The notes under the pieces are model-generated. The model did no database searches and had not been told where the DNA came from. It saw only the letters and a list, made by a program, of their open reading frames with translations. The translations under genes were made by a program, and so were the position numbers. From Protonemura montana (lineage: Eukaryota > Arthropoda > Insecta > Plecoptera > Nemouridae), in assembly GCA_947568835.1 (NCBI GenBank), contig OX387609.1:9749660-9813659 (forward strand): a DNA stretch of 64,000 nucleotides, in the 5' to 3' direction. This document shows positions 18,201-59,000 of this stretch, one piece after another. Each line of letters starts with the position of its first letter. The stretch's first letter is position 1.

Positions 18201-21200
18201 AAACCACCAACTAAATCACCATATTCAAGATAGCTTCTAGTGTTAAAACAATGAGCCAAGCTCACCGCGAGATCTCTCCGTTGTTGGGGTCCATGGTCAT
18301 GAAGATGCGGAATCCTCGATGAGGCTTGACGGTGAAGAGCGTGCCGTCTTCGCGGGCCCCGCGCTCTCCGATTGTCAGCACCCCGTTGTGCTCGAGCAGC
18401 CCGTTGAGTCGATCGAGCACCGCGGCCGAGGCCAGGTTCACGTTGTCCAACACCAGCCACGAACCTTCCGTCAGGCACTGGAATCAAAGCTTGCCGATAG
18501 TTTCGGCGTACTACCATAGCACTGACGTCCAACTGTCTGCGTGATAGGTGGCGGTCAAATGACTTCTTTACCGTGACAAAATTGGAAGATACTACTAGAT
18601 GGAGTCACCGTCGTTTCGAGTGTTAAGAAATTTCATTTCGTTATTTCTCGCAGATAACTCGCATTTGCGACTGGTTAAATGCATAATTAATATTAATTAA
18701 TGTTTATGCTCAACGATTGATTTAGATGTATCGATATTTTGAGTCGTGATAATTTAATTGTAGAGTCGGAAGCGCCATTGGGGGGCACCTACCGCTACCA
18801 CCTGTTGCCGGCTCGTTTGCTCAGCAGAAAGTTCAACATTGACAGTTTTTCTCTAACTCTAAACTATACACTCAACAGTTTCTGGTTTTTATCGCTGTGA
18901 AAATGAGCGGTTTATACAAAAAGGCTCTCACCTAATTTCTATGACTCATCTTACCTTAATGACTTTCTAATTTTTATGACAAATTCATCTTTCCAAAATT
19001 TTTAATACTAGGATTATCTGACTCTGGCATTGAGTATCAAGCCAGGAAGTTGGTTAGCTTTTCTCAAATCATATAGATCCTTATCTAGAAATAAACCACA
19101 TATCCATGTACTTACATTCTCCATTTATTAATTACCTTGACGAGGACGCTGTCGACCCATTCAAACTTCCCGCCGGCATTCAGGTTGCCCTCCTCGGCGA
19201 CCGTTTCGTCGATAGCGCGCAGACGCTCGAGCATGAGGTCGACGTCGCCGATCTCCCGAGGCTCCAGGTAGCGCATCATCTTTATGAGGATCTCGCGGAG
19301 GAACGCATTCTCGAGGCGGAACTGAGCGACAGCGTCTGCTGTCGTGCGCTGTGCTTTCGGAGCTAAGTCGTGAAGGAAGATATAGCGTCGTATTATGAGG
19401 TACACTAAAAACCTCTCAAAAATTGATGAACAAGCGGGGACTCTAACCCCGATCTCCACCTGTTTTGAAAGGTCATTAGAATATGTAAAAATAAAATACT
19501 TTGTGCAATTGCAAGCACTTGTAATTTAAATCAGATTTCAGAGCATAGAGCGCTGATCGCTTTATTGTGTTTAGCGACGCACTGTTTTGACAACGGGCAC
19601 TGTGGCACTGGTCTAAAAGCGTCGGTTAATGAGTGGGTGATAATGATGATGATGATAATGAACCTAAGAAGAAGGGAGGAGGGAAACTTGGTGCTGGTAC
19701 GTAGCCTAGTTATGTCTGAACGGTTAGTTTACAATTTAGCCTTATGTCTAATTCTAGACTCCTAGTTTTTAAATGAGAAATATCTCTGACTTCTTAAAAA
19801 CCCAGATCAAACTCTGTAGACCAATCTAATTTGCATTATTTTCCCATTTCCCGTGGTTGTAGTACAAGCAGGAAATTAATGTTGAATATTTTTTTATTTT
19901 TTCTGCTATCAAGAAACAGGTCAAATTTTGCAGGCAACAACTGTCCAGGCCATTGAGGCTAGAAATAAAGGTAGAAATAGAGTATGTTGCAGACTTGTCC
20001 TTATTGACATGAGCTTATTTCGTTTTTCGTTTTCGTTTTTTTTGTTATCAGCTGATAAACTTAATTCAGGTAGTGGAGTTTAAAATTGAAAGAAAGGAGC
20101 TATGATAGAACATAATTTCACAATTTGTTTACAACATACTGGATTTCTGGCGTTCCAACTTTAAAAATCTGGCCAGAAAAAATCTGCGAAAATTAATCTG
20201 AAATCAGCATTCTCTGAAGCACCATGGGGGTACCGTATCAGAAGTGGCGAACTCTTTTCAAGGTCAGACTTTATGGTCAAAGGGCAGGGTCAGCCTTCAA
20301 AATTAGTTTTCTAGGTAAGGATGGCACACATTTCAACAAAGCAGACGTGGATGATGGTAAGCAAGGGGTTCAATAGTTTTGAAGCGCGTCAAACTTGTAA
20401 TAAATAAAGTAAAAAAAAAAAAAAAATGCACTATCACATGTCTCCCGTCTTCATTCTTCTGACTTTGACAATAAAACATCCTCATGAACCAATTATCTTA
20501 AGAAACATTGAACAAGTCTCCTCGAGACAGCTGACTGTCGCACCGCAGCACGCCAAGAGACCGTGAACCTAACAAGTCAAGTGCAGCGAGATAATCAGCA
20601 AGGCGCAAGGCGGGAAAAACAACGAGCGACCATTAACCTCGAAAAGACCGGCAACCACTGTAGCAGGTCCCAAACACGACTTTCACTTTAACAGGGATAA
20701 TATTTCCCCCAGGACTAGCAAGGGAAACTTCCAGCTTACGCCATTCGGAGAGAGTTGGGATTGCTGGGAGAGTGGTGGTAATTCCTACACAGAGCTGGGA
20801 AATTTGATTTAGTTGTCAGTCTTGGGGCAAACATGGCGTCTACGCTTGGTGTAGACCACTCTCTGGCTTTCAAGGCTTCATGGCTTGACAGTCAGACATG
20901 GCAAACATGGCGTCTACGCTTGGAGTTGGCCAGTCTCTGGCTATCAAGGCTCCATGGCTTGACATTCAGTCTTGAGGCAAACATGGCGTTCACGCTTGGT
21001 GTTGGCCACTATCTTGCTATCAAAACTTTCAACCCAAAACCCGAAAGCAACCCCCTCATTCCATTCCTATCCAGTCCCTCATCAAAGTTGATCCCCCCTT
21101 CCCCGCTAAAAACTTCACGGCGTCAAAGGGTGGCTTCCTACTGAAACATTCATGGGATTCTCGCTCATTCCTAGCATTCCTAGACATTCCAGGTTTGTGG

Positions 21201-22451
21201 ACAGCTCTGAGCCTCCGGGACAACTTGCCGCAGTTTGTAGCGACTTGCCGCACTGGTGGAGGTCATGATTTGCAATAAACATTGCTTACAAACTTGCTGC
21301 TTAAATCAAGATTGAGAGGCAAGCTGTTTGGTGGGAATAGAAACTGACTGCACTGCTCAGCGAATGGGGGACGTGGGAATGCTGACACCTGTTAACATGT
21401 GTACGGAACATTTGGTGGCAGGCGGAGATGTTTATTAAATGAACCGGCTACAATGGAAATGTGACGACACTGATGACAAAACAGTTCCGTTAGTTTCATG
21501 ATAACTGGGTCACTTACATCGAACGACCTTTAGTGGTCAACGTATTGATTTTTTGTGTTTACTGATGAAGAGTTTCGACACCAGGCCCTGTAGCACTGGT
21601 CTAATGACCTATGTGAATGAGTTGGCGATAATTAAGATGATGAGAAACAAAGCTTCGTCTATAAGGTAGAAGGGAAAACCTCGACCAAAATAGGGGGCAC
21701 GAAGGTTAGGGCGAAACCAATCAAGAGCAAGTATTTCGAGGCTGATTCTCTGCAATACCACCCTACTCTGTGTCTTCTGCCTACTAAAGGAACGGTTTGG
21801 CGTGTTGGAAACACCGGTTCTCATGACATCACCGAAGTTAAGTAACACTGCGCTGGGTCAGGTGTTGGATGGGTGACCATCATACACATAACCAGTTCTG
21901 TTCGGGAGAGAGGTTGGAGGGATGAAAGTTAGTACAGCAACTTCACTCGTCTTGCTTATCAACCTCTTGACAGCATGGATTTGTGGAGGAATTTTGTTGT
22001 TCGCGTTGTACCGTCATTCGGAAATGACGTTAAGCCGGTAGTCCCCTTGGTACTGTTGGACAGGAGTAGGCTACGTGCCGGCACCGAGTTCCCCCCCCCC
22101 CCCCCCCTCCCTTCTAGGCTAGGATAGGTTTATCATCATCCTTATCATCATCCATACATTCACCGACGCTATTAGACCCATGCCGCATGGCCAGATGTCA
22201 AAACAGTGCGTCGTTAAACACCACATATAAAAATAATAATAATAACCTAAACTATGGCAGCGCCATCTTGTGCGCAGGTACTTACCTTCAGCTTGCATGC
22301 GCGAGTATTTCTCCCACATCTGGTACAGCGCGTGCGCGTCGGCCTGCGCCACGGCCTTGGACTTCGGTTGCCCCAGCAACCGTCGAACAATCACAAGCAG
22401 ACGCCTGCGCACGCGCCCTGCGATCACCTCCACGTGACGCACGTAGTCAAC
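57..22451 (-). CDS. MDN1: Midasin (AAA ATPase, 60S ribosome assembly), partial gene, 18 exons
   Basis: Midasin (yeast Rea1) is a dynein-like hexameric AAA protein that uses ATP to strip assembly factors from pre-60S ribosomal particles in the nucleolus and nucleoplasm. Eighteen minus-strand exons give about 1292 codons; family members are near 5000-5600 residues, so about a quarter is present. Order and splice phases agree at all seventeen junctions: 22286-22451, 19136-19362, 18266-18477, 17874-18031, 16935-17159, 16042-16250, 15437-15589, 15013-15193, 14367-14568, 14065-14187, 13698-13871, 13093-13244, 9497-9733, 8749-8984, 8363-8553, 7776-8163, 515-937, 57-277. The first four carry AAA6: a Walker-B-like WLVLDNVNLA, then FRIFMTMDPNNGEIS and the arginine-finger region RAMRNRGVEIF. 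The rest is the helical linker. The N-terminal AAA1-5 exons and the C-terminal acidic and MIDAS exons are not seen. One intron hosts an opposite-strand F-box/LRR gene and another hosts two hAT elements. Confidence 0.93.
348..437 (-). mobile_element. Decayed tRNA-derived SINE fragment
   Basis: On the minus strand it aligns by eye with the copy at 55127-55250. Shared pieces are ctctcaaaaat, tttgcccaaata, ctgatctccatctatcgc and agctacttggacac. Both Pol III boxes are degraded. Confidence 0.6.
515..937 (-). CDS. MDN1: MDN1 exon, linker (YYQHPFIAIYR segment)
   Basis: A single 141-codon exon encodes LDRVEALLTAYKLQAEVLGH, then DTYYQHPFIAIYRSQAAELE, HYAMSLAHGDVVFGLLKRIE and KNWLESQKRFCEKIAVDYAL. The helical content and phase 0 at both ends agree with direct continuation from exon 7776-8163 (AAAEE|LDRVEA). 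The acceptor is tccttccgcag and the donor CAG|gtgagt. Confidence 0.9.
938..2699. other. Non-coding: midasin intron and 5' flank of F-box/LRR gene
   Basis: No convincing exon is seen. It holds the dispersed repeat at 2381-2622 and a GC-richer patch at 1883-2170 with an 84-bp in-frame imperfect duplication (NPSWFVTPQTSS then NPNWFVSPQTSP) that could belong to an upstream exon of the F-box/LRR gene but has no recognised homology. Confidence 0.5.
2381..2622 (-). repeat. Dispersed ~245-bp repeat (family R1)
   Basis: In reverse it matches 18599-18840, 34370-34570 and 62140-62385. Shared markers are gtcaccgtcgtt near one end, gattgataaacat in the middle and gtttgctcagcagaaagtt at the other end. It ends about 80 bp before the first ATG of the F-box/LRR gene. 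It looks like a short non-autonomous element; I found no clear terminal repeats or target duplication. Confidence 0.7.
2700..2978 (+). CDS. F-box/LRR gene exon 1 seen (5' end uncertain)
   Basis: The first in-frame ATG is at 2700, but clear family similarity starts only near 2830 (SSRWRQI). If the acceptor ending at 2792 is used, the exon is 2793-2978 and an upstream exon with the first half of the F-box remains to be found. The donor TGCAAG|gtacgg gives phase 0. Confidence 0.65.
2700..7328 (+). CDS. F-box/LRR-type leucine-rich-repeat protein, 6 exons, nested in MDN1 intron
   Basis: Exons 2700-2978, 3358-3445, 3897-4077, 4637-4770, 5148-5307 and 7199-7328 join in frame to about 323 codons and a TGA stop. 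The N-terminal exon carries VSSRWRQIQANTALWRNRTV, which resembles the C-terminal half of an F-box (V-x-x-R-W-x-x-I-x-x-x-x-x-L-W). The remainder is a chain of irregular LRRs, e.g. SCPKLSHLQLQGCKELTDAS and LLETLDISSCSGLGVDTI. F-box/LRR proteins recruit substrates to SCF ubiquitin ligases; that role is inferred from family resemblance only. The whole gene sits inside the midasin intron 938-7775 on the opposite strand. The start is uncertain: the residues after the first ATG look like a signal peptide (MVALFIINFGVASLQSASSA), unexpected for an F-box protein, and an acceptor ccttgcag ending at 2792 could begin the exon instead. Confidence 0.85.
3358..3445 (+). CDS. F-box/LRR gene exon 2
   Basis: It encodes FRKPYFTEKPPHQGYQLETL and TVETFALDS. 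The acceptor is cctgtttccag and the donor TCTG|gtaagg; phase 0 in, 1 out. Confidence 0.82.
3897..4077 (+). CDS. F-box/LRR gene exon 3 (LRRs)
   Basis: It encodes GLHLLLKSCRNLKDVRLRIS through EKIDLSTFRGCSFNQLMALI. LRR spacing is seen at NLKDVRL and NIEKIDLS. The acceptor is tctactggcag and the donor CGCAG|gttaaa; phase 1 in, 2 out. Confidence 0.86.
4287..4483 (-). mobile_element. 5S-derived SINE, divergent partial copy
   Basis: In reverse it reads 5S-like aagttaagtaactctgtgct, then ttaccagttctgtttgggag, aggttggagggatga and ttgcttattaacctctcgac, the same order as the full copy 21791-22225. It lies in intron 3 of the F-box/LRR gene and is the most diverged copy. Confidence 0.7.
4637..4770 (+). 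CDS. F-box/LRR gene exon 4
   Basis: It encodes RLKYWRSDGISPLTGKQLTT through LAPDFNNVMRDE. The acceptor is tgcctgacag and the donor GAAC|gtaagt; phase 2 in, 1 out. Confidence 0.84.
5148..5307 (+). CDS. F-box/LRR gene exon 5 (two LRRs)
   Basis: It encodes HVDLLVRSCPKLSHLQLQGC and KELTDASIGHIKTLHLLETL, two textbook cysteine-containing LRRs. The acceptor is gctctcaacag and the donor ATTAA|gtgcgt; phase 1 in, 2 out. Confidence 0.9.
5308..7198 (+). other. Intron 5 of F-box/LRR gene (1.9 kb)
   Basis: No coding signal is seen. It holds a TA dinucleotide run near 5456-5470, a tRNA-SINE tail remnant at about 5385-5450 (ttgcaaacactttcaatgcg) and an ATT-rich microsatellite near 5996-6020. Confidence 0.6.
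7199..7328 (+). CDS. F-box/LRR gene terminal exon
   Basis: It encodes KKVKSMKSLHTLDVSRYQLS through VDVRTTVEAE and ends in TGA at 7326-7328. The acceptor is gttgctttcag. I see no canonical AATAAA in the 400 bp downstream. The stop lies about 450 bp from the end of the convergent midasin exon 7776-8163. Confidence 0.86.
7329..7775. other. 3' flank between convergent exons
   Basis: AT-rich and without any open exon. It lies between the stop of the F-box/LRR gene and the donor side of the midasin exon. No clear polyadenylation signal was seen. Confidence 0.5.
7776..8163 (-). CDS. MDN1: MDN1 exon, linker (MDPIAKR segment)
   Basis: It is the second-longest exon here (129 codons). It encodes SSNEWLSATSAYYHLAHNVS to ANLGFMDPIAKRVMKAEAA. 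The acceptor is tggtttccag and the donor GAGGAG|gtgagt; enters phase 2, leaves phase 0. The next midasin exon is 6.8 kb away, across the opposite-strand F-box/LRR gene. Confidence 0.9.
8363..8553 (-). CDS. MDN1: MDN1 exon, linker
   Basis: It encodes IEVHPLSSALLTTLVLQLTI to ASFASKEFDI. The acceptor is tatcccgcag and the donor ATCAG|gtaaga; enters phase 0, leaves phase 2. Confidence 0.85.
8632..8740. repeat. Short tandem duplication in MDN1 intron
   Basis: The string gctaccacagataaagctt occurs at 8669 and 8717 (48-bp spacing), preceded each time by an attatggg-like string. It ends just outside the donor of exon 8749-8984. Confidence 0.65.
8749..8984 (-). CDS. MDN1: MDN1 exon, linker
   Basis: It encodes DQSATELVSLLSALPSTPVT to RPEQACPLPDE. 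The acceptor is ccctttacag and the donor GACGAG|gtgagc; enters phase 1, leaves phase 0. Confidence 0.84.
9497..9733 (-). CDS. MDN1: MDN1 exon, linker
   Basis: It encodes VAHAIESARETFFSLASINQ, an acidic DANEED loop, and a helical part ending TEMIAKFVG. The acceptor is aactccag and the donor GGAG|gtcagt; phase 1 on both sides. Confidence 0.84.
9734..10106. other. MDN1 intron, left part, AT-rich
   Basis: No exon or repeat family was recognised before the first hAT element. Confidence 0.5.
10107..11484. mobile_element. hAT-like DNA transposon remnant 1 with 8-bp target duplication
   Basis: The element spans 10115-11476. It begins tagagccacgattatatggt and ends, in reverse, tagagccaagattatacggt, so the terminal inverted repeats match at 19 of 21 positions. 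The direct repeat ctcatagc flanks it at 10107-10114 and 11477-11484. An 8-bp target duplication and a TIR fitting YARNG indicate the hAT superfamily. Inside, near 10966, the string for SVDAERFF matches the hAT C-terminal dimerisation motif, but a 40-bp deletion follows and no long frame survives. It is a dead, non-autonomous copy on the opposite strand to midasin. Confidence 0.88.
11484..12913. mobile_element. hAT-like DNA transposon remnant 2, adjacent to the first
   Basis: The element spans 11492-12905 with the same termini and is flanked by ctcatcgt at 11484-11491 and 12906-12913. It is closely similar to remnant 1 along its length. It retains the transposase tail further: SVDAERFF, then in a shifted frame NLVLTDKGRRMKE (12344-12416), interrupted by a one-base frame change and a stop. 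The 8-bp duplications of the two elements share one base (11484), so one inserted right next to the other. Confidence 0.88.
12109..12420 (+). pseudogene. hAT transposase C-terminal remnant
   Basis: An 80-codon open stretch (from MGCNKYLTFDDQAKQLFVSD) runs into the dimerisation motif D-A-E-R-F-F; an extra T in the run at 12362-12368 breaks the frame. It lies within hAT remnant 2. No DDE catalytic core was recognised. Confidence 0.6.
13093..13244 (-). CDS. MDN1: MDN1 exon, linker
   Basis: It encodes VSRWLDIWAEKDRDRRIPLM to LEEDGHQT. The acceptor is ctctgagcag and the donor ACCG|gtgaga; enters phase 2, leaves phase 1. The next intron is about 3.4 kb because two hAT elements have inserted in it. 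Confidence 0.85.
13424..13498 (-). mobile_element. 5S-derived SINE, 3' tail fragment
   Basis: It carries the tail markers tgtggcacta and tgaatgagta, then the gat-rich stretch and aatgaacctta. It is followed at once by a plus-strand tRNA-derived SINE. Confidence 0.65.
13508..13648 (+). mobile_element. tRNA-derived SINE fragment
   Basis: A B-box-like ggtttcgaatccc (around 13544) is followed by tttggcatccatttttgaga, an A/T-rich aataataaaatac and the tail gcaagcacttgcaatt. The A-box half is decayed. It lies between midasin exons 13093-13244 and 13698-13871. Confidence 0.7.
13698..13871 (-). CDS. MDN1: MDN1 exon with GC splice donor
   Basis: It encodes SSSVQMASLDQLVLNLYSSL to AQLALELL. The acceptor is gctttgcag. 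The only donor that preserves the frame into the next exon is CTCAG|gcaagt, a GC-AG intron with the strong AG|GCAAGT context typical of such sites; the split serine codon AG|C is then completed correctly. Confidence 0.82.
14065..14187 (-). CDS. MDN1: MDN1 exon, linker
   Basis: It encodes SKGREPALNEDTLNVVFVNA and GWAMKKFVPRLSKLVMQDKE. The acceptor is ttgctccag and the donor GAACT|gtaagt; phase 2 on both sides. Confidence 0.82.
14367..14568 (-). CDS. MDN1: MDN1 exon, linker
   Basis: It encodes AVGSDSLTDEPIVVSAGQLV to AFQLPVATAK. The acceptor is ctctttgcag and the donor GCAAA|gtaagg; enters phase 1, leaves phase 2. Confidence 0.83.
14620..14772 (+). repeat. Dispersed repeat R2, copy 1
   Basis: It matches 38800-38945 and 58160-58350. 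Markers are tgttatcggaaaattgtcag, gaagaagtaactagtacatg and attcaaaacccatttcaaat. Confidence 0.75.
15013..15193 (-). CDS. MDN1: MDN1 exon, linker
   Basis: It encodes HLKHLPVDLRWLPETGRKFD to DYSNSIQN. The acceptor is ctatgtag and the donor AACG|gtaagc; enters phase 0, leaves phase 1. Confidence 0.83.
15437..15589 (-). CDS. MDN1: MDN1 exon, linker
   Basis: It encodes VFYESACSDEYAIAPWIQRI and continues to KPQLAEILP. The acceptor is gacttcag and the donor CCG|gtgagg. Phase 0 on both sides, joining in frame to the neighbours. Confidence 0.83.
16042..16250 (-). CDS. MDN1: MDN1 exon, linker
   Basis: It encodes DEPGNSELSVRELIDSATIS to KRLRRLLYPLMQ. The acceptor is ctgttgcag and the donor CAG|gtcagt. 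Enters phase 1, leaves phase 0. Confidence 0.83.
16297..16400 (-). mobile_element. 5S-derived SINE, 3' tail fragment
   Basis: It carries acgacgcactgttttgacaa, tgtggcactagtctaatg, gtcggttaatgagtgg and the gat-rich stretch, the reverse of the tail of the full copy. It lies in the intron before midasin exon 16042-16250, 47 bp from the acceptor. Confidence 0.75.
16935..17159 (-). CDS. MDN1: MDN1 exon, start of linker
   Basis: It encodes GDLGVSHMTRAAFLIDQQTS through LSGDATDT. The acceptor is ctcctag and the donor ACAG|gttcgt. Phases 1 in and 1 out match both neighbours. It starts the poorly conserved helical linker after the AAA ring. Confidence 0.85.
17160..17873 (-). other. MDN1 intron, no other feature
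   Basis: AT-rich. No exon, repeat family or RNA gene was recognised. Confidence 0.5.
17874..18031 (-). CDS. MDN1: MDN1 exon, arginine-finger region AMRNRGVEIF
   Basis: It begins by completing the split Arg codon and reads AMRNRGVEIFMPTMTG, the post-sensor helix conserved in midasin AAA modules. It continues with a helical segment ending MHRALTLANQ. Donor CAGG|gtcagt, phase 1. Confidence 0.95.
18266..18477 (-). CDS. MDN1: MDN1 exon, AAA6 Walker B and sensor 1
   Basis: It encodes CLTEGSWLVLDNVNLASA followed by VLDRLNGLLEHNGVLTIGER and FRIFMTMDPNNGEISR, the most diagnostic midasin sequence in the window. The Walker-B acidic pair reads DN rather than DE. The acceptor is gattccag and the donor CGCG|gtgagc; it ends in phase 2 and the arginine codon is completed by the next exon. 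Confidence 0.96.
18599..18840 (+). repeat. Dispersed repeat R1, copy 2
   Basis: Starts gatggagtcaccgtcgtttc and ends gtttgctcagcagaaagttc. It matches 62140-62385 along its length and lies in a midasin intron. Confidence 0.75.
19136..19362 (-). CDS. MDN1: MDN1 exon, AAA6 with GGKFEWVD motif
   Basis: It encodes FRLENAFLREILIKMMRYLE and then LNAGGKFEWVDSVLVK, the stretch that precedes Walker B in midasin AAA modules. The acceptor is cgacttag and the donor AAG|gtaatt; the end phase is 0. Confidence 0.92.
19405..19540. mobile_element. Rearranged tRNA-SINE pieces
   Basis: The left half is minus-oriented (ctctcaaaaattgatg, ccccgatctccacct) and the right half carries the tail in plus orientation (aataaaatac, gcaagcacttgtaattt). 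An inverted junction between two fragments is the simplest reading. Confidence 0.55.
19571..19715 (-). mobile_element. 5S-derived SINE, 3' part
   Basis: Starts agcgacgcactgttttgaca, then tgtggcactggtctaaaag, gtcggttaatgagtgg, a gat microsatellite and gggaggagggaaa. Confidence 0.78.
20224..20426 (+). pseudogene. Small ORF with poly(A) signal and A-tract, possible retrocopy
   Basis: A 50-residue frame begins in a strong start context (gcaccATGGGG) and contains FLGKDGTHFNKADVDDGKQ before its TAG. A canonical AATAAA follows at about 20399 and a run of about 16 A at 20411-20426. Start context, stop, signal and A-tract in this order suggest a processed copy of an mRNA or the 3' end of a retroposon. 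The protein is not recognised. It lies in the midasin intron 19363-22285. Confidence 0.4.
20826..21015 (+). repeat. 76-bp minisatellite, locus 1
   Basis: About 2.5 units are present, with atggcgt at 20833, 20907 and 20983. Shared words with locus 2 (49853-50218) are ctccatggcttgacagtcag, atggcgtccacgcttgg and ctctggctatcaag. Confidence 0.85.
21577..21690 (-). mobile_element. 5S-derived SINE, 3' tail fragment
   Basis: It carries tgtagcactggtctaatgac, tgtgaatgagttgg, a gat-rich stretch and gaagggaaaacctcg. It lies 100 bp before the full-length copy in opposite orientation. Confidence 0.7.
21791..22225 (+). mobile_element. 5S-rRNA-derived SINE, full-length copy
   Basis: The head reads acaccggttctcatgacatc, accgaagttaagtaac and ttggatgggtgacc, i.e. 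the internal promoter region of 5S rRNA, which would be bound by TFIIIA/TFIIIC for Pol III transcription. A unique body follows (cagttctgttcgggagagag; ttgctta; ttgtggaggaatt; gacgttaagccggta; ggctacgtgccggcac), then poly-C, a TCATCA microsatellite and the tail gtgcgtcgttaaacacc. It ends about 60 bp from midasin exon 22286-22451, on the opposite strand. Confidence 0.88.
22091..22107 (+). repeat. Poly-C tract inside SINE
   Basis: About 17 uninterrupted C within the SINE body, where other copies read a mixed C/T tract. Confidence 0.9.
22286..22451 (-). CDS. MDN1: MDN1 exon (first seen), before AAA6 Walker B
   Basis: Acceptor ttgttccag and donor AAG|gtaagt frame this exon; it starts in phase 0 and ends in phase 1. 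It encodes a basic, helical stretch beginning VDYVRHVEVIAGRVRRRLL and ending SRMQAEG. It joins in frame to the next exon (QAEA|PKAQRTTADAV). No exon upstream of it could be found over the following 33 kb. Confidence 0.85.
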
Positions 22452-22482: not shown

Positions 22483-22960
22483 ACAGCTGAGAGTGAACTC
22501 GGTGCTGACACGTAGCCTACTCCTGTCCAACAGTACCAAGGACCGGCCACCACTTAGCCTTGTCCATTTGACACACTGTGTTGTCTGCCTTAGCCTTGTC
22601 CCTTTGACACACTGTGTTGGCTGCTCATGTCCAACAGCACCAAGGACCTGCCACCGCTTAGCCTTGTCCCTTTGACTCACTGTGTTGGCTGCTCCTGTCC
22701 AACAGCACCAAGAACCAGCCACCGCTTAGCCTTGTCCCTTCGACACACTGTGTTGGTTGCTCCTGTCCAACAGCACAATGGACCGGTCACCGCTTAGCCT
22801 TGTCCCTTTGACACACTGTGTTGGCTGCTCCTGTCCAACAGCACCAAAGACCGGCCACCGCTCAGCCTTGTCCCTTTGACACACTGTGTTGGCTGCTCCT
22901 GTCCAACAGCACCAAGGACCGGTCACCGCTTAGCCTTGTCCCTTTGACACAATGTGTTGG
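22483..22960 (+). repeat. 68-bp satellite, locus 1 (about 6.5 units), with SINE-derived edge
   Basis: Units read ctcctgtccaacagcaccaa, ggaccggccaccgcttagcc and ttgtccctttgacacactgt, then gttggctg (68 bp). The left flank (ggtgctgacacgtagcctac) is SINE body in reverse. It begins about 50 bp upstream of the midasin acceptor at 22452. Open frames across it are a by-product of the repeat. Confidence 0.9.
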
Positions 22961-24407
22961 CGTATTGGCAGAAAAAAGGGTTTCGGTACAGGAGTTTTCA
23001 AATTGACAATCGAATATTTTTGTCACACCAGCGAAAGACATTACTAATGCACAACACGTGATCTTCATGACGTCGACATCGTGTCGAGATTTCCCATCAA
23101 TCACCACTCGCCGGGTTTGCCGGGAAATCGGAAAAGTCCGGGAAAGCGTCGTGACGGATCACCAATGACGGCTAATGGAAAACCATGTCTCGGACATTTG
23201 CACGGGTCGGAAAAGCGAGAAATCTTGCTAATGGGGCCGAAAGCAGACCGAAAATAGGCACGACAATTTAATGATTGCGTTACTTGATTTGGCGAGACAA
23301 GGCTTCAAGAAACATACTTTAGGCACATTTTAAAATGTATTCTTTTTCTAAATTCTTCATCGTGATTGGTTGAAAAGGCGTTGTAGGATTTCACATTATG
23401 GCAAAGAGCAGGTACCTATCGAACACAAAAAAAAAGAAAACTGGAAAAAAGGCTTTCATTTCGTGAAAATCACGATTTTTCTTGCGCCTAGTCGTTGATT
23501 TCCTCGGAGAGTTTCCCATTGTCGAGTACGTGCGATCGGGCGTTCCATAGACTCAAAGGCTAGCACACGGGGAAGCGACCTTTGAAAGACCCCCGCTCGC
23601 CCTGTACGGGTGAAACTATGACAGGTAATGTGGAGTTGAAACCGGTCCTTTGATCGTCTATCAGTTGTTTCTAGGGAGGAAGAAGCGATCCGTACAGGCA
23701 GACCAACTTTAGACCTTCCGAAGGATATCCGCTATACTGGCTCAAGCACTAGGTAGATGTTTAATTTCGCTAGCTAGGTGTAATCAGAAAACCCCTGATC
23801 CTAACCCCCGCTCGTAATGGGTATTTAGAAGACTCATGTACGTGGAAGATATAACGTTCAACCATGAAAAAAACGCCATGAAATTCTAATGGGGCAATTA
23901 CAAACTACCCGATGCGATTTTTTTTTTTTGACTAATTTTCCAGTTGGCCGAATATCAGCGCTCGTCGTGAAAAGTTGCAGCGTGCATTTAGCACAAAACG
24001 AATGCAAGGAAAACGCCCGGCCCCCTGGGGACGTTGAATACCCATTGCACGTTGAAAGCATAACGAATTGGGAGAATGCACCCTTATATTTCCAGAGCCG
24101 AGAGAGAAGCATTGCATTCTGGACCAGTCGTAGACACACGGACTTTATGGGAATGTCATTCGTGGAGTTGCACACTGCTGGTTGTGACAGTTTCTGTCTG
24201 GGAAAATACAATTTTACCTTCGAAAATCCGATAACCGAAGCTTTTTATCAATTTTTTAAATCGGCTATGCTTGAAATCTCTCTCAAGGGAATACATAGAT
24301 AAAATAATCTCAAATTATTTTCTCACATGTCGGCAATTTGAGACGTTCCCCAATTTCCTTGATTTGTGTGTGGAATCAACTGATTTCATATTAATTGTAT
24401 AGATTGT
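22961..24407. other. Intergenic or intronic, no gene recognised
   Basis: It includes an open plus-strand frame 23889-24302 (137 codons) without recognised similarity or splice support. Otherwise AT-rich, with a GC-richer patch at 23500-23640. Confidence 0.5.
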
Positions 24408-24795
24408 AGGATCCAGCCAGCTGATCCCAAATAACCTGGATAGAGCATAGGATCCAGCCAGCTGATCTCAAATAACCTGGATAGAGCATAGGATCCAGCC
24501 AGCTGATCTCAAATAACCTGGATAGAGCATAGGATCCAGCCAGCTGATCTCAAATAACCTGGATAGAGCATAGGATCCAGCCAGCTGATCTCAAATAACC
24601 TGGATAGAGCATAGGATCCAGCCAGCTGATCTCAAATAACCTGGATAGAGCATAGGATCCAGCCAGCTGATCTTAAATAACCTGGATAGAGCAAAGGATC
24701 CAGCTAGCTGATCGCAAATAACCTGGATAGAGCATAGGATCCAGCCAGCTGATCTCAAATAACCTGGATAGAGCATAGGATCCAGCCAGCTGATC
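24408..24795 (+). repeat. 41-bp tandem array, about 9.5 units
   Basis: The unit reads aggatccagccagctgatct, caaataacctggatagagca and t. The word ctgatc recurs every 41 bp from 24421 to 24790. Units are nearly identical, with single changes (e.g. tcccaaa at 24425, agctagctgatcg near 24705), pointing to recent expansion. Confidence 0.95.
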
Positions 24796-26819: not shown

Positions 26820-27240
26820 GACCCACCGTTTTCACTACGGTTCCTGTGGCTGTGGCACTGGTCTAACGGCGTCGGTGAATGAGTGGAAGGCGATGAGGAT
26901 AATGATAAACATAACCTAGTCTGGGAGAGAGCAAGGGAAACCCGGTTCCAGCAATAAGCATTCTTCCGTCGAAGAGCTTGACGTCCCTTCCGAAAGACGG
27001 AACAACGCGAACAGGATTCCTCCACAAATCCATGCTGTCGAGAGGTTGATAAGCAAGGCGAATGAAGTTGCTGTACTAACTTTCATCCCTCCAACCTCTC
27101 TCCCGAACAAAACTGGTCATTTGTATGATGGTCACCCATCTAAAACCTGACTCAGCGCAGTGTTGCTTAACTTCAATGACTTGAAGAGAACCAGTGATTC
27201 CAACACGTCAAACCGTTCGGTTACATATCTTTCTGTTCAA
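26820..27240 (-). mobile_element. 5S-derived SINE, near full-length copy
   Basis: Read in reverse: aacggtttgacgtgttgga, gttctcttcaagtcattgaa, gttaagcaacactgcgctga, agatgggtgaccatc, then the whole body and the tail ttcaccgacgccgttagacc. The 5S central segment is partly mutated. No stop-free reading is expected or claimed. Confidence 0.85.
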
Positions 27241-28990: not shown

Positions 28991-29104
28991 CAAGGGTTAA
29001 ACGTGTAGGAACAACGCGCTCTTTCAATGTTTTTCCTTTCAAGGCTGCGTTAGCTTTGTTTTAGGAAGTCTATTTTAGAAAGTACCACAGAGACAGCGCC
29101 AGCA

Positions 29105-29508
29105 CGGTGTGTCAAAGAGGCAAGGCTAAGAGGTGGCCGGTCCTTGGTGCTGTTGGACAGGAGCAGCTAACACAGTGTGTCAAAGGGACATGGCTAAGCG
29201 GAGGCCGGTCCTTGGTGCTGTTGGACAGGAGCAGCCAACACAGTGTGTCCAAGGGACAAGACTAAGCGGTGTCCGGTTATTGGTGCTGTTGGTCAGGAGC
29301 AAACACAGTGTGTCAAAGGGACAAGGCTAAGCGGTGACCGGTCCTTGGTGCTGTTGGACAGAAGCAGCCAACACAGTGTGTCAAAGGGACAAGGCTAAGC
29401 GGTGACCGGTCCTTGGTGCTGTTGGACAGGAGCAGCCAACACAGTGTGTCCAAGGGACAAGGCTAAGCGGTGGCCGGTTCTTGGTGCTGTTGGTCAGGAG
29501 CAACACAA
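29105..29508 (-). repeat. 68-bp satellite, locus 2 (about 6 units), inverted
   Basis: Same 68-bp unit as at 22520-22960 and 56112-56516 but in reverse (cacagtgtgtcaaagggaca, aggctaagcggtgaccggtc, cttggtgctgttggacagga). One unit is short, missing gcagcca near 29300. Confidence 0.92.
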
Positions 29509-32022: not shown

Positions 32023-32024
32023 TA

Positions 32025-32462
32025 CGGTTTGGCGTGTTGGGAACAGTGGTTCTTGTGAGATCACTGAGGTTTAGTAACACTGTGCTGAGTCAGGTATTGG
32101 ATGGGTGACCATTATACACATGACCAGTTCTGTTCGGGAGAGAGGTTGGAGGGATGAAAGTTAAGCAATACTGCGCTGGGTCAGGTATTGGATGGGTGAC
32201 CATCATACACATGACCAGTTCTGTTCGGTAGAGAGGTTGGAGGGATGAAAGTTAAGCAACACTGCGCTGGGTCAGGTATTGGATGGGTGACCATTATACA
32301 CATGACCAGTTCTGTTCGGTAGAGAGGTTGGAGGGATGAAAGTTAGTACAGCAACTTCATTCGTCTTGCTTATCAATCTCTTGACAGCATGGATTTGTGG
32401 AGGAATCCTGTTGTTCGCGTTGCAATGTACTACTTCGGAAAATACGTTAAGCCGGTAGTTAT
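32025..32462 (+). mobile_element. 5S-derived SINE with three tandem heads
   Basis: It starts acggtttggcgtgttgggaa. The stretch from ttaagcaa or ttagtaac to gggatgaaag occurs three times: words ttaagcaa at 32161 and 32252 and ttagtaca at 32343, i.e. a 91-bp period. The last unit continues into the normal body (ttgtggaggaatcctgttgt, gttaagccggtag). Each unit repeats the 5S-like ttggatgggtgacc. The 3' tail is absent. Confidence 0.88.
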
Positions 32463-49852: not shown

Positions 49853-50218
49853 GGCTCCACGGCTTGACAGTCAGTTTTGGGGCAAAAATGGCGTCCACGC
49901 TTGGAGTCGGCCACTCTCTGGCTATCAAGGCTCCATGGCTTGCCAGTCAGTCTTGGGTCAAACATGGCGTCCACGCTTGGAGTCGGCCATTCTCTGGCTA
50001 TCAAGACTCCACGGCTTGACAGTCAGTTTTGGGGCAAAAATGGCGTCCACGCTTCGAAGTCGGCCGCTATCAAGGCTCCATGGCTTGACAGTCAGTCTTA
50101 GGGCAAACATGGCGTCCACGCTTGGAGTCGCCCACTCTCTGGCTATCAAGGCTCCATGGCTTGACAGTCAGTCTTAGGGCAAACATGGGATCCACGCCTG
50201 GTGTCGGTCACTCTCTAA
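49853..50218 (+). repeat. 76-bp minisatellite, locus 2 (about 5 units)
   Basis: Units start at 49853, 49929 and 50005 (ggctccacggcttgacagtc, then caaaaatggcgtccacgctt and actctctggctatcaa). One later unit has lost several bases near 50060. Same family and orientation as 20826-21015. Confidence 0.92.
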
Positions 50219-50995: not shown

Positions 50996-51248
50996 ATGGG
51001 TGCTGCGATTAGTTGGCAAAGCCCCGGGCAAAGGGTGGTTGATTTTGTGAGGCTTGGAAATAAAGTTTGATTGCTAGCTGGAGTTACCAAAATGTTTCCA
51101 ACTCAGCAGATTTAATATCAATTCGGTTATCACGTTGTGTAAGTATATATACATATACATATATATATAATAATATATAATATGTACATATATATTTTTT
51201 TTTGCCTGTCGCTTCAATTTCCAGCAATGAAACAGTCATAATTTTCCT

Positions 51249-51300
51249 CAAATTCAAGCTGTCGAGATGTTGATAAGCAAGGCGAATGAATAAGGATGAC
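51249..51300 (-). mobile_element. 5S-derived SINE, small body fragment
   Basis: It carries ctgtcgagatgttgataagc and aaggcgaatgaa, the reverse of the SINE body. It leads into the tRNA-SINE tail pair. Confidence 0.6.
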
Positions 51301-51309
51301 ATCTTATTT

Positions 51310-51436
51310 AAATTGCAAACGCTTGCAATACGCCCTATTTTATTATTATCAACACTATAACAGTCTCAAAAATTGATGCAAAAATTGAAATCTATTTTTG
51401 AGACGGTTATAGTGTTGATAATAATAAAAAAAAGGC
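51310..51436. repeat. Near-perfect 36-bp inverted repeat made of two tRNA-SINE tails
   Basis: The left arm 51338-51373 (ttttattattatcaacacta...) and the right arm 51394-51429 pair over 36 bp with one mismatch, separated by a 20-bp loop. Both arms are the tail segment seen at 26350-26400 and 55127-55165 (gagacggttatagtgttg). The left arm is preceded by gcaaacgcttgcaatacg. Confidence 0.9.
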
Positions 51437-51815
51437 GAGTGAAGTTGCTGTACTAACTTTCATCCCTCCAACCTCTCTACCGAACAGAACTGGTCATGTG
51501 TATGATGGTCACCCATCCAATACCTGACTCAGCGTAGTGTTACTTAACTTTCATCCCTCCAACCTCTCTCCCGAACAGAACTGGTCATGTGTATGATGGT
51601 CACCCATCCAATACCTGACTCAGCGTAGTGTTACTTAACTTTCATCCCTCCAACCTCTCTTCCGAACAGAACTGGTCATGTGTATGATGGTCACCCATCC
51701 AATACCTGACTCAGCGTAGTGTTACTTAACTTTCATCCCTCCAACCTCTCTTCCGAACAGAACTGGTCATGTGTATAATGATCACCCATCCAATACCTGA
51801 CCCAGTGTTGCTTAA
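51437..51815 (-). mobile_element. 5S-derived SINE with four tandem heads
   Basis: Four units with a 91-bp period (ttacttaa at 51540, 51631 and 51722), each containing the reverse of ttggatgggtgacc and gaccagttctgttcgg. The joint between units (gttacttaactttcatccct) is the same joint as at 32151-32170. The body continues on the left (aaggcgagtgaagttgctgt). Confidence 0.9.
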
Positions 51816-52264
51816 AGTCGGTGACCGGTGATTTTCAACACGGATACAAAACATTTGCTTAGCAAAGAAGCTAAAGCAAAAAGACAATTTCATCAGAGTA
51901 AAAATAATTTTTGAGTTTTTGATATAATTTAAATAAAGGAACATAACCACAGGTTAGGTTCGTAGTAGCTTCGGAAAAAGAACCGAGCGCACATTTATTT
52001 GACTGCCAATTTAAGACAAAGCAGCAAGTCTCATTAAAATTTTAAATTACATTTCCCCCAATGCGAACGGGTAAGTTAAGATTTAAAAAAAATCCCTGGT
52101 GAACAAACAGCGGATGTTAAAAATTCGGAGGGTGGACCGAAAAGAGTACGAACATCATGTGAAAAAAACATTCTTTGCTTTTAAATGAATGTACTTTAAA
52201 ATATTTGGCCACAGACATGGGAACAAAAAAAACACACATTATAACGAGGATTGACCTAACCTAG
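51816..52264. other. No gene recognised
   Basis: AT-rich spacer between two SINE copies. Confidence 0.4.
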
Positions 52265-52500
52265 CCAAGAAGGGAGGAGGGAAAACCCGGTGCCCGCATG
52301 TAGCCTACTTCTGTCGAAAAGCACCAAGGGGACTACCGGCTTAACGTCCCTTCCAAAGGACGGTACAACGCAAAGAACAGGATTCCTCCACAAATCCATG
52401 CTGTCGAGAGGTTGATAAGCAAGGCGAATTAAGTTGCTGAACTAACTTTCATCCCTCCAACCTCTCTCTCAAACAGAACTGGTCATGTGTATGATGGTCA
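52265..52500 (-). mobile_element. 5S-derived SINE, 5'-truncated copy
   Basis: It carries gggaggagggaaaacccggt, gtagcctacttctgtcgaaa, gggactaccggcttaacgtc, caaatccatgctgtcgagag and caacctctctctcaaacaga; it stops at gtatgatggtca, before the 5S-like core. Confidence 0.82.
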
Positions 52501-56099: not shown

Positions 56100-59000
56100 G
56101 TGAGGATTTTTCTCCGGTCCAACAGCACCAAGGACCGGCCACCGCTTAGTCTTGTCACTTTGACACATTGTGTTGGCTGCTCCTGTCCAACAGCACCAAG
56201 GACCGACCACCGCTAAGCCTTGTCACTTTGACACAGTGTGTTGGCTGCACCTGTCCAACAGCACCAAGGACCGGCCACCGCTTAGTCTTGTCACTTTGAC
56301 ACACTGTGTTGGCTGCTCCTGTCCAATAGTACCAAGGACCGGCCACCGCTTAGCCTTGTCACTTTGACACACTGTGTTGGCTGCTCCTGTCCAACAGCAC
56401 AATGGACCGGTCACCGCTTAGCCTTGTCCCTTTGACACACTGTGTTGGCTGCTCCTGTCCAACAGCACCAAGGACCGGCCACCGCTTAGCATTGTCCCTT
56501 TGACACACCGTGTTGGGCCAGTCCATATAGCACTGGTCTATTGGCTGTCAGTTAATGACCGGTTTATTATGAAGCTAGTCTATACTAGCAGGGAGCCGAG
56601 GGTGGCCACGGTGCCGACAAGCCCGCAGCTACAGGTTGATGTTGAAGGTGTGACCCGAGTGTTGATGTTGATGGCCCGTCAGGTCGAACGCAATGTAGAG
56701 TAACTTCACATGGATAATCCGAGGACGGAAAAAAAAAGACTGGCGAATCACTCTCTGTAAGTTACAGCAAGATAAAAGATCACGGCACTCACAAATAACA
56801 CGAGAACGAAGAATGAAAACACGGCCCGCATTGAGCTGTTTATCTAGGAAACAAAATCTCGACGCCGAAAGACTTTCGAGCGAACTACGTCCGGTTAGAA
56901 TTACCGCCTCTCAGATGCAAATCACGGCACTTCCGGTGTCGCCCTGAAATATGGGCCGTGCATAATTCCAGAAGAGAAAAGTTAATTTTGCGCTCTCGCC
57001 AAACAGAATGAAGGGAACGTTTTTTTTTTATCTTGCCCTTAACGAGCATTTGTTTTCCAATTTCTGGCCGCGATGGGCGAGAAGTGAATTTGCATATTAT
57101 TATTTTCTTTTTCGGATTCTTGCGATTTTCTGTTGTCTTGTTGTACTTCGAAGAGGTCGATATCTCTTGGTAGAATGTCGGGGGCCTTTGCGTTCAGACG
57201 ACAAGTGAATAAGATGATCGCGATTTTATTTGGCGTAGGGTGTAGGTTTCGACAACGCTAACGCGTGGGCCGAAACTTAAGTTAAGTTTAGTTTCCTTTT
57301 TAAGTACTGAGTATACAGCAAATCTATTCGCTTTGCTTATCAACCTCGCGACAGCATTGATTTGTGGAGGAATTCTGCTGTTCGCGTTGTACCGTCCTTC
57401 GGAAGGGACGTTACAGCCGGTGGTCCCCTTGGTGCTCTTCGACAGGAGTTGGCTACGCCATTTGAGGTGCTACGTTAAACAACAAAAATCACCATGAATA
57501 GGAAAAGTTTAAATGTGAATAATTGTTAGCAGATTCAAAATTTTGCACTGCAATGCACAATTTGTGAAAGTTGTGAAGTTGCTGAAATAGCAGAAGAACA
57601 TTAGCAGCGAATTCAGCGAAAAGTCTCATATTTTCAAATCAGATTCAGCCGTTATTCAAATTCGGGCATACGAAATCTAGAAGAAACAAAACCACCATCC
57701 GCCCCAAACCCGGCCCACTTGCGTCATTTCAACACGCACCCACAAAGCCGTGAGACATTCCTGCCGAAAGCGCGCGAAGTGCGACGATAAATCGACGATA
57801 GAGCATCGCTCGACCCGCCATCTGGCGGCGAGAGTGCGTCGCGACGCCGACCTCCTCGACGCTAGTGAACCCATAACTCCCAGGGCGCCGTGTACCTACC
57901 GCGGGGCAATAGACGGGAGTTGTCTTCGAAGAGGGTCGGCTAAGGGGTGAGAGTTGCTGGCCACCATTTGGCTGTCCTGGCATTGATGGCGCGTTGTTTT
58001 CCCCATTTTTAACTCGCGTTTTCATATAGGGTTACAGTGACATGGAAATGTCAGTGGATTTTCTTTAAAATATGTCCTTAGTATAGGCGAAAGATGCAAA
58101 AACGAATAACTTGGTTAAAGCTTCAAAGTGAATTTCAAAACGATTCGGATTAAAACCGAAGAAAATTCAAACATAGATGCATTTAGGAAGCTTGAACTAG
58201 GTAATTGTTATAATTTCATGTGGTTCTTTTGTTATCGGAAAATTGTCAGGACTGCTCTATTCCTTGAAGAAGTAACTAGTACATGTTACGAAAGGTCGGA
58301 AAATTTAGTTGTCCTTTACTTAGCATTCAAAACCCATTTCAAATAGTTTTTGTTAATATTTGTAATTGATCTACAATATTTGACAAAGATTGCAGCCCTG
58401 TCTTACAGTGGCCCATGTCGGGTTTTTTTTTACACATTATTGTGCACCCAACTTTTGCGATTTCAAAACATGGTGATCTTAAACGTAAATTTATTTTTCA
58501 TGCCGTACTTAAACTTCGTTCTCTAACTTCACAAAGCTGAGAAACGCTTGCAATGCGCGGGGTATTTTACTATTAGGAACACTAATAAAAATGCGTTCAT
58601 TAAGTCTTTGATGAACTGATAGCTCAGAGACTTGGGGTTTGAAAATACGATGAGTGGCAAACATATTCAATATACCGCAACGGCTGCAGCTAGCCTTGGA
58701 TCCGCAAAACCAGCATGCGCACGCAACGACCATTTCGCAGCACCAATCGAAAAGCATCGCCAAGTGGCGCACTCTTTTCCACCAGCAACTCTCACAGCTT
58801 TCTTCGCGTCGTCGAGCGCTGGCAAAGCACGCATCTTCAAATTGGAAAGCATTTCTCAAAACGCGGCTATGTCGTTCTCACTCACACAAGTGCACGGCAT
58901 TAATGTGGTGAAAATAAGCTGCCGAAAAGCCCGAGGAAAACTCACGTCACGGTCGGAAAATTTTTAAATGAGCCACTTTCGAGAAAATGTCTTTCTTTAT

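Follow-up and report, generated by a model that had tools for sequence, protein, structure and literature searches.

Multi-headed copies of a 5S rRNA-derived SINE in the insect Protonemura montana most probably go back to a founder duplication of the head at an AAGTTA repeat, which would have been spread by retrotransposition and followed by local growth and shrinkage of the head arrays, mostly in outer chromosome regions (probability roughly 0.7, judged from sequence comparison). The starting point was a window, that is, the whole analysed stretch of 64,000 nucleotides (contig OX387609.1, here C12), in which a sequence-only reading had noticed two multi-headed copies, the second of them four-headed, and had explained them either by mobile multimers or by rearrangement recurring at AAGTTA. 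Both mobility and local rearrangement appear to apply, at different steps: one copy elsewhere (L040) entered its locus as a multimer and heads have changed locally; recurrent formation at AAGTTA accounts poorly for the abundance of the junction.

The four-head array is real. It occupies 51460-51818 on the minus strand and follows a 91-bp register, and its three junctions are mutually identical, each an exact match to GTTACTTAACTTTCATCCC (at 51539, 51630 and 51721, within 51437-51815). TRF reports a period of 91, 3.9 copies and a 98% match for 51454-51805, as well as a period of 91 and 3.0 copies for 32069-32345, the place of a three-head array on the opposite strand. The junctions of the latter, at 32151 and 32242, are of the GTTACTTAACTTTCATCCC type with 2 and 1 mismatches; the view that both arrays use the same junction thus stands for the 91-bp register, while identity of the string is confined to the four-head array. 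Allowing up to 3 mismatches, GTTACTTAACTTTCATCCC has 5 matches in the window against 0.01 expected from dinucleotide shuffles. The copies are composed as follows:

51733-51818, minus strand: head unit 1, only 86 bp because of a 5-bp deletion, and further from the consensus than the other units
51642-51732, minus strand: head unit 2, 91 bp
51551-51641, minus strand: head unit 3, 91 bp
51460-51550, minus strand: head unit 4, 91 bp, the last, joining the tail; unit position 72 is its sole difference from units 2 and 3
51434-51459, minus strand: first part of the tail of the four-head copy
51291-51433, minus strand: hairpin-rich 143-bp insert in the tail, with flanks TTCACTCGCC and TTCATTCGCC
51231-51290, minus strand: rest of the tail, diverged, with approximate limits read by eye
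32067-32339, plus strand: three-head copy, heads at 32067-32157, 32158-32248 and 32249-32339
21787-21925, plus strand: single-head copy with a whole 5S-like head, unit at 21835-21925
27083-27221, minus strand: single-head copy, unit at 27083-27173
52449-52500, minus strand: single-head copy truncated within the head

As a whole, the SINE copy with four heads spans 51231-51824 on the minus strand. Head unit 1 is preceded by TCACCG at 51819-51824, the final bases of the 5S 5' half, and this damaged half may, judged by eye, extend to about 51843; in the three-head copy most of the 5S 5' half lies upstream of the first head, at about 32024-32066. Tail similarity of the four-head copy (locus L153) stops at about tail position 76 of 299, and neither of the two multi-head copies of the window shows a TSD. 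The 143-bp insert has a predicted fold of -52.4 kcal/mol, its Rfam search gave sub-threshold miRNA-like matches only, and its flanks are 10-bp near-repeats, as expected for a small mobile hairpin element.

By its sequence, the element is classed as a 5S-derived SINE (SINE3 type) of an insect and the window array as a multi-headed copy of it, on account of the 5S-like head, the head/tail layout and the TSDs. The copy at 21787 matches Rfam RF00001 with 54 bits over model positions 1-120 (21787-21907), the copy at 27083-27221 scores 35.9 bits and is under the cut-off of 38, and the two window arrays themselves gave no RF00001 match at E up to 5. In an alignment of 35 copies, the element starts at or near ACCGAACGGTTTGG, has a 139-bp head (linker included) and a roughly 300-bp tail, and ends with GTTAAACACCACAAATAAAT; the flanks of aligned full-length copies vary between loci. 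A single-head element accordingly consists of a 48-bp 5' part of 5S, the 91-bp unit (remaining 5S-like head plus linker) and the tail. Each repeated unit appears to contain a whole putative 5S-type internal control region, whose boxes in 5S genes are named A, IE and C. Among copies with an intact 3' end, TSDs passing the rule applied here were found on 15 of the 29 with a single head and on 11 of the 33 with several (11 of 46 multi-head copies overall), with 66 of 3,774 mismatched flank pairs passing the same rule.

The window array is unexceptional in its genome. The 258-Mb assembly contains 18,081 exact matches to the head-head junction and 4,836 to the head-tail junction, which rules out the case that multi-head loci are lacking elsewhere, and the T-variant of the junction that the window carries has 415 exact matches. 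Head number per copy ranges from 1 to 29 or more. An assembly artefact, conceivable since tandem repeats are prone to mis-assembly, has a close to negligible probability: the window array measures only 0.36 kb, its heads carry distinguishing bases, and comparable arrays occur at dozens of loci.

The AAGTTA microhomology is likewise genuine, being a 6-bp repeat with its copies 91 bp apart in the element. It is not the only repeat of its kind, as the consensus contains six further repeats of 6-7 bp through which the promoter block could be duplicated entirely or almost entirely. Sorting of 431 head blocks from 171 loci (11 of these loci stemming from junction or haplotype searches, the others found mainly by tail) by the preceding sequence yielded 287 blocks preceded by a unit end, i.e. 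the AAGTTA junction, 118 preceded by the 5S 5' half and 26 unassigned, while none of the 431 was preceded by tail, the arrangement that two of the other registers would produce. Hence, all 287 assignable repeated heads use the AAGTTA junction. Genome-wide, a single pattern for the registers with 95-bp and 192-bp shifts, covering two of the six, found 11 places (by junction sequence only, nine of the 95-bp kind, one of the 192-bp kind and one ambiguous), or about ten alternative junctions, against 18,081 of the AAGTTA class. Looser string searches in the 171 loci gave 4 matches for AGCAAC, which by eye are ordinary junctions or 5S context, 190 for GTTAAGC, indistinguishable from ordinary junctions at that looseness, 7 for TCACCGA, the 4 displayed being 5S 5' halves, 1 for AAACACC that resembles a 5S 5' half, and none for the remaining two registers.

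The notion that AAGTTA repeatedly causes the same rearrangement therefore explains the abundance of the junction poorly, given a single register and rare alternatives. Fresh head duplications seem to occur, if rarely, and the most plausible origin of the large AAGTTA class is one founder or a few; a single register would likewise result if the copying enzyme mechanistically favoured AAGTTA. As a separate observation, two junctions of the AGCAAC register lie 95 bp apart at C12:16523343 and 16523438 and probably represent an independent multiplication of heads, judged by junction sequence only.

These counts bear on a purely local explanation, according to which every multi-head locus started as a single-head insertion that underwent its own AAGTTA duplication and then grew. 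A strong locus signal among heads, described below, the clustering of multi-head copies in certain regions and the alternative-register junctions, which suggest that new duplications do arise, fit this explanation, yet it is quite unlikely in view of the single register used by all assignable repeated heads despite six other usable repeats, of multi-head tails that are younger and partly distinct, and of L040, which is not derivable from a lone head cut off at unit position 53.

L040, at 0.49 Mb on C1, has eight heads, the first of which begins at unit position 53 and is devoid of the 5S promoter block. A perfect 14-bp TSD, AAACACTGGACTCC, sits flush with both the truncated first head and the tail end, and its score was matched by none of 3,774 mismatched flank pairs. 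Because a head truncated at unit position 53 is unable to yield complete heads, L040 must have been inserted with at least two; arrival with two heads and growth thereafter would also account for it. It is the only one to pass the TSD rule among the 11 multi-head copies with readable flanks whose sequence begins within the first unit, at position 6 or beyond. More generally, TSD-bearing multi-head copies have 2 to 8 heads, and a TSD on such a copy attests insertion, not the head number at insertion. The five copies with a perfect young tail that were fetched all stop short of the usual 3' end; one is single-headed, one extends beyond the fetched stretch, and the other three have no TSD passing the rule. 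An internal start of transcription was also considered, since truncations at unit positions 45-48 looked slightly frequent, as they would if transcripts began 48 bp ahead of an inner head, and was dropped because three of the four copies truncated there are single-headed.

Local change is most directly visible in the window array itself. Position 72 is the one site of 91 at which heads 2-4 differ from each other; they have T9, A16 and A22 in common, and the haplotype string GTTAAGTAACACTACGCTGAGTC occurs at 8 places genome-wide, namely the three window heads and five separate loci, from which the expansion is read as local to the window array. Across 74 arrays, rare variants common to at least two heads of one array numbered 42, compared with a mean of 7.0 and a maximum of 16 in 500 shuffles, and the nearest neighbour of a head lay in its own array for 56.0 of 216 heads (shuffle mean 5.5, maximum 10.9). 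Identical head pairs amounted to 23 of 604 within arrays and 170 of 22,616 between arrays. Moreover, blocks of units recur within single arrays: units 4-6 are repeated as 9-11 in L017, units 4-5 as 8-9 in L054, units 4-5 as 6-7 in L020 and units 3-4 as 5-6 in L040. Taken as sequence evidence, this argues that arrays grow in place. The head and tail trees, the consensus-divergence figures, the block list for L017, L054 and L020, the diagnostic tail bases and the minisatellite comparison of distal and interior loci are based on sets that leave out some distinct young loci identical around the junction, or on sets related to these. Mean head divergence is 4.7% within and 5.35% between arrays, and this near-equality implies that many or most arrays have not grown recently.

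The sequence-only reading had proposed that units grouping by position across loci would indicate a mobile multimer and units grouping by locus a local expansion. When this comparison was made, the locus signal proved strong and the position signal weaker, carried mainly by the first head: the head tree requires 64 changes for position, against a minimum of 65 in 300 within-locus shuffles, the signal for middle versus last heads being reached by 11 and that for first versus last heads by 77 of 300 shuffles. If, on the other hand, multi-head copies were purely mobile, masters of fixed head number would have been copied and all head variation would have arisen in these masters. TSDs on copies with 2 to 8 heads and within-array divergence almost equal to between-array divergence would suit such masters, which are nevertheless very unlikely in light of head numbers from 1 to 29 or more, of rare variants copied blockwise inside single arrays, of a window haplotype tripled in the window array alone and of a position signal that is weak past the first head.

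The genomic distribution adds a further dimension. On C1, a sample chosen by tail and blind to head number comprised 70 loci from 100 listed places (the first 30 plus 40 of the remaining 70, i.e. the first 20 and then 20 across the next 50); multi-headed were 14 of 17 loci in the first 1.8 Mb versus 3 of 53 at 2.6-27.2 Mb (Fisher p=2e-9). A second sample, defined by two rare tail variants on all contigs, found 54 places, of which 40 were fetched and 18 proved multi-headed. Once C12, C14 and C15 were set apart, a separation made post hoc after inspection of the data, 10 of 15 copies lying no more than 4 Mb from a contig end were multi-headed, as were 2 of 17 deeper ones, and on the three separated contigs 6 of 8 were so at any position. 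In addition, 99 of the 100 listed junctions with a mutated base (of 482) lie within 3.4 Mb of the ends of C1-C4, and all 100 listed copies of an exact 131-nt young tail (of 213) within 3.6 Mb of the ends of C1-C5, both position lists covering large contigs and stopping before the smaller ones. Multi-head copies are thus mainly situated in the outer megabases of large contigs; as the window locus lies mid-contig on C12, subterminal placement is a tendency, not a rule. A general tandem-proneness of distal regions was considered and set aside: other minisatellites covered 8.3% of the sequence in 17 distal 3-kb loci and 3.3% in 13 interior ones, a non-significant difference (p=0.20).

Multi-head copies also have younger tails. 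Median tail divergence on C1 is 1.4% for multi-head (n=17) and 8.6% for single-head copies (n=52), and in the second sample 3.1% (n=18) and 7.7% (n=22), figures in which single-head divergence is inflated by a reference tail biased towards the multi-head lineage. Three diagnostic tail bases are commoner in multi-head copies; a single clade of multi-head tails was not recovered in the tail tree, which shows 20 changes, compared with a shuffle mean of 29.1 and minimum of 23. Restricted to young tails (<4.5%, without C12, C14 and C15), the multi-headed share was 17 of 22 in outer and 3 of 9 in inner regions (p=0.04), so that age accounts for part of the location effect, perhaps not for all of it. 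Among heads, inner ones diverge least from the consensus (2.8%) and single ones most (7.7%).

Such a distribution raises the alternative of a subterminal satellite homogenised by ectopic gene conversion between chromosomes, for which retrotransposition would no longer be relevant. The confinement of the listed young-tail copies to contig ends, inner heads that are nearest and single heads that are furthest from the consensus, and the five youngest-tail copies ending short of the usual 3' end without a TSD are in line with it. It is unlikely as the sole account, however, considering flanks that are locus-specific, TSDs on 11 of the 33 multi-head copies with an intact 3' end, and multi-head copies located inside C1 (3 of 53) and, as in the window, mid-contig on C12. 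This satellite alternative partly overlaps the founder-and-spread reading preferred here, and the likelihoods assigned to the several explanations add up to other than one.

The preferred reading, a founder duplication that was mobilised and then modified locally, can be resolved into three steps. In the first, the unit delimited by the AAGTTA copies in the 5S part and at the tail junction would have been duplicated, once or very few times. In the second, the multi-head form would have been retrotransposed, giving rise to the younger lineage, with one copy (L040) entering with at least two heads. In the third, units were copied in place at individual loci with shifts of one to five units, presumably through unequal exchange or slippage, yielding the three near-identical heads at 51460-51732 as well as arrays of up to 29 or more heads. 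Sequence comparison underlies the first and the third step, while the second is supported by one decisive copy, L040, together with the single register. Recombination rate, retention or insertion preference are candidate causes of the subterminal bias. A more far-reaching proposal, put forward tentatively and at odds clearly below even, is that of a retrotransposing SINE lineage with complete putative 5S-type pol III promoters in varying number on its RNA, whose head number is both inherited through transposition and recombined locally, and whose inner heads could start transcripts inside the preceding head.

Within one small genome, the arrays grade from an ordinary SINE into a subterminal satellite, a transition in which founder duplication, spread and local growth are separable by diagnostic bases, truncations and TSDs. 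Moreover, with a whole putative promoter region in each repeat, it becomes directly testable what additional promoters do to a SINE.

Nearest in kind are the SINE-derived satellites (sSats) of squamate reptiles, which PMC10702118 describes as tandem arrays of a SINE fragment, bounded by SINE-derived ends, with a unit number that varies, di- or trimeric patterns in some species and a subtelomeric preference; their SINE heads are tRNA-related, and the common snake unit carries box B and part of the body. The arrays described here share the partial-SINE units, SINE ends, variable unit number and subtelomeric preference, and differ in a unit derived from a 5S head, in one dominant junction register and in one copy inserted as a multimer. 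HaSE3, a SINE3 of Helicoverpa armigera (PMC3272025), likewise has a 5S-like head and TSDs on some copies, but is described with one 5S-related region, the word 'tandem' being absent from the main text of that article. Dimeric and multimeric SINEs such as Alu and the jerboa Dip (via PMC10702118) also amplify as or form tandems, whereas here the promoter-bearing head alone is repeated, with one tail. PcH-Sat, a limpet satellite made from Nin-SINE, is in turn pericentromeric, with a unit devoid of pol III boxes, unlike the present element (PMC11121367). A title-level search, reaching few subscription journals, found no publication title on a multi-headed 5S SINE among the matches listed.

Several other repeats were noticed along the way. 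A 68-bp minisatellite family is present at three places of the window in both orientations (22589-22961, 29098-29502 and 56112-56516; TRF, compared by eye), and a related 74-76-bp minisatellite forms two arrays (20815-21023 and 49853-50216; TRF, by eye). The 41-bp minisatellite at 24407-24795 recurs, by eye, beside the array L047 with 17 or more heads at about 0.99 Mb on C1, near the end of that contig. The mitochondrial contig C34 carries COX1 and COX2, which by eye are those of an insect. COX1-like nuclear stretches occur at C4:5760925-5777755, one of which scores the same as C34. The spacing of junctions at C2:1941066-1946717 suggests a head-carrying repeat of about 2.1-2.3 kb, and dense junction matches at C2:18983-35485 and C1:33078646-33092859, no more than tens of kb from contig ends, suggest long near-terminal stretches of heads.
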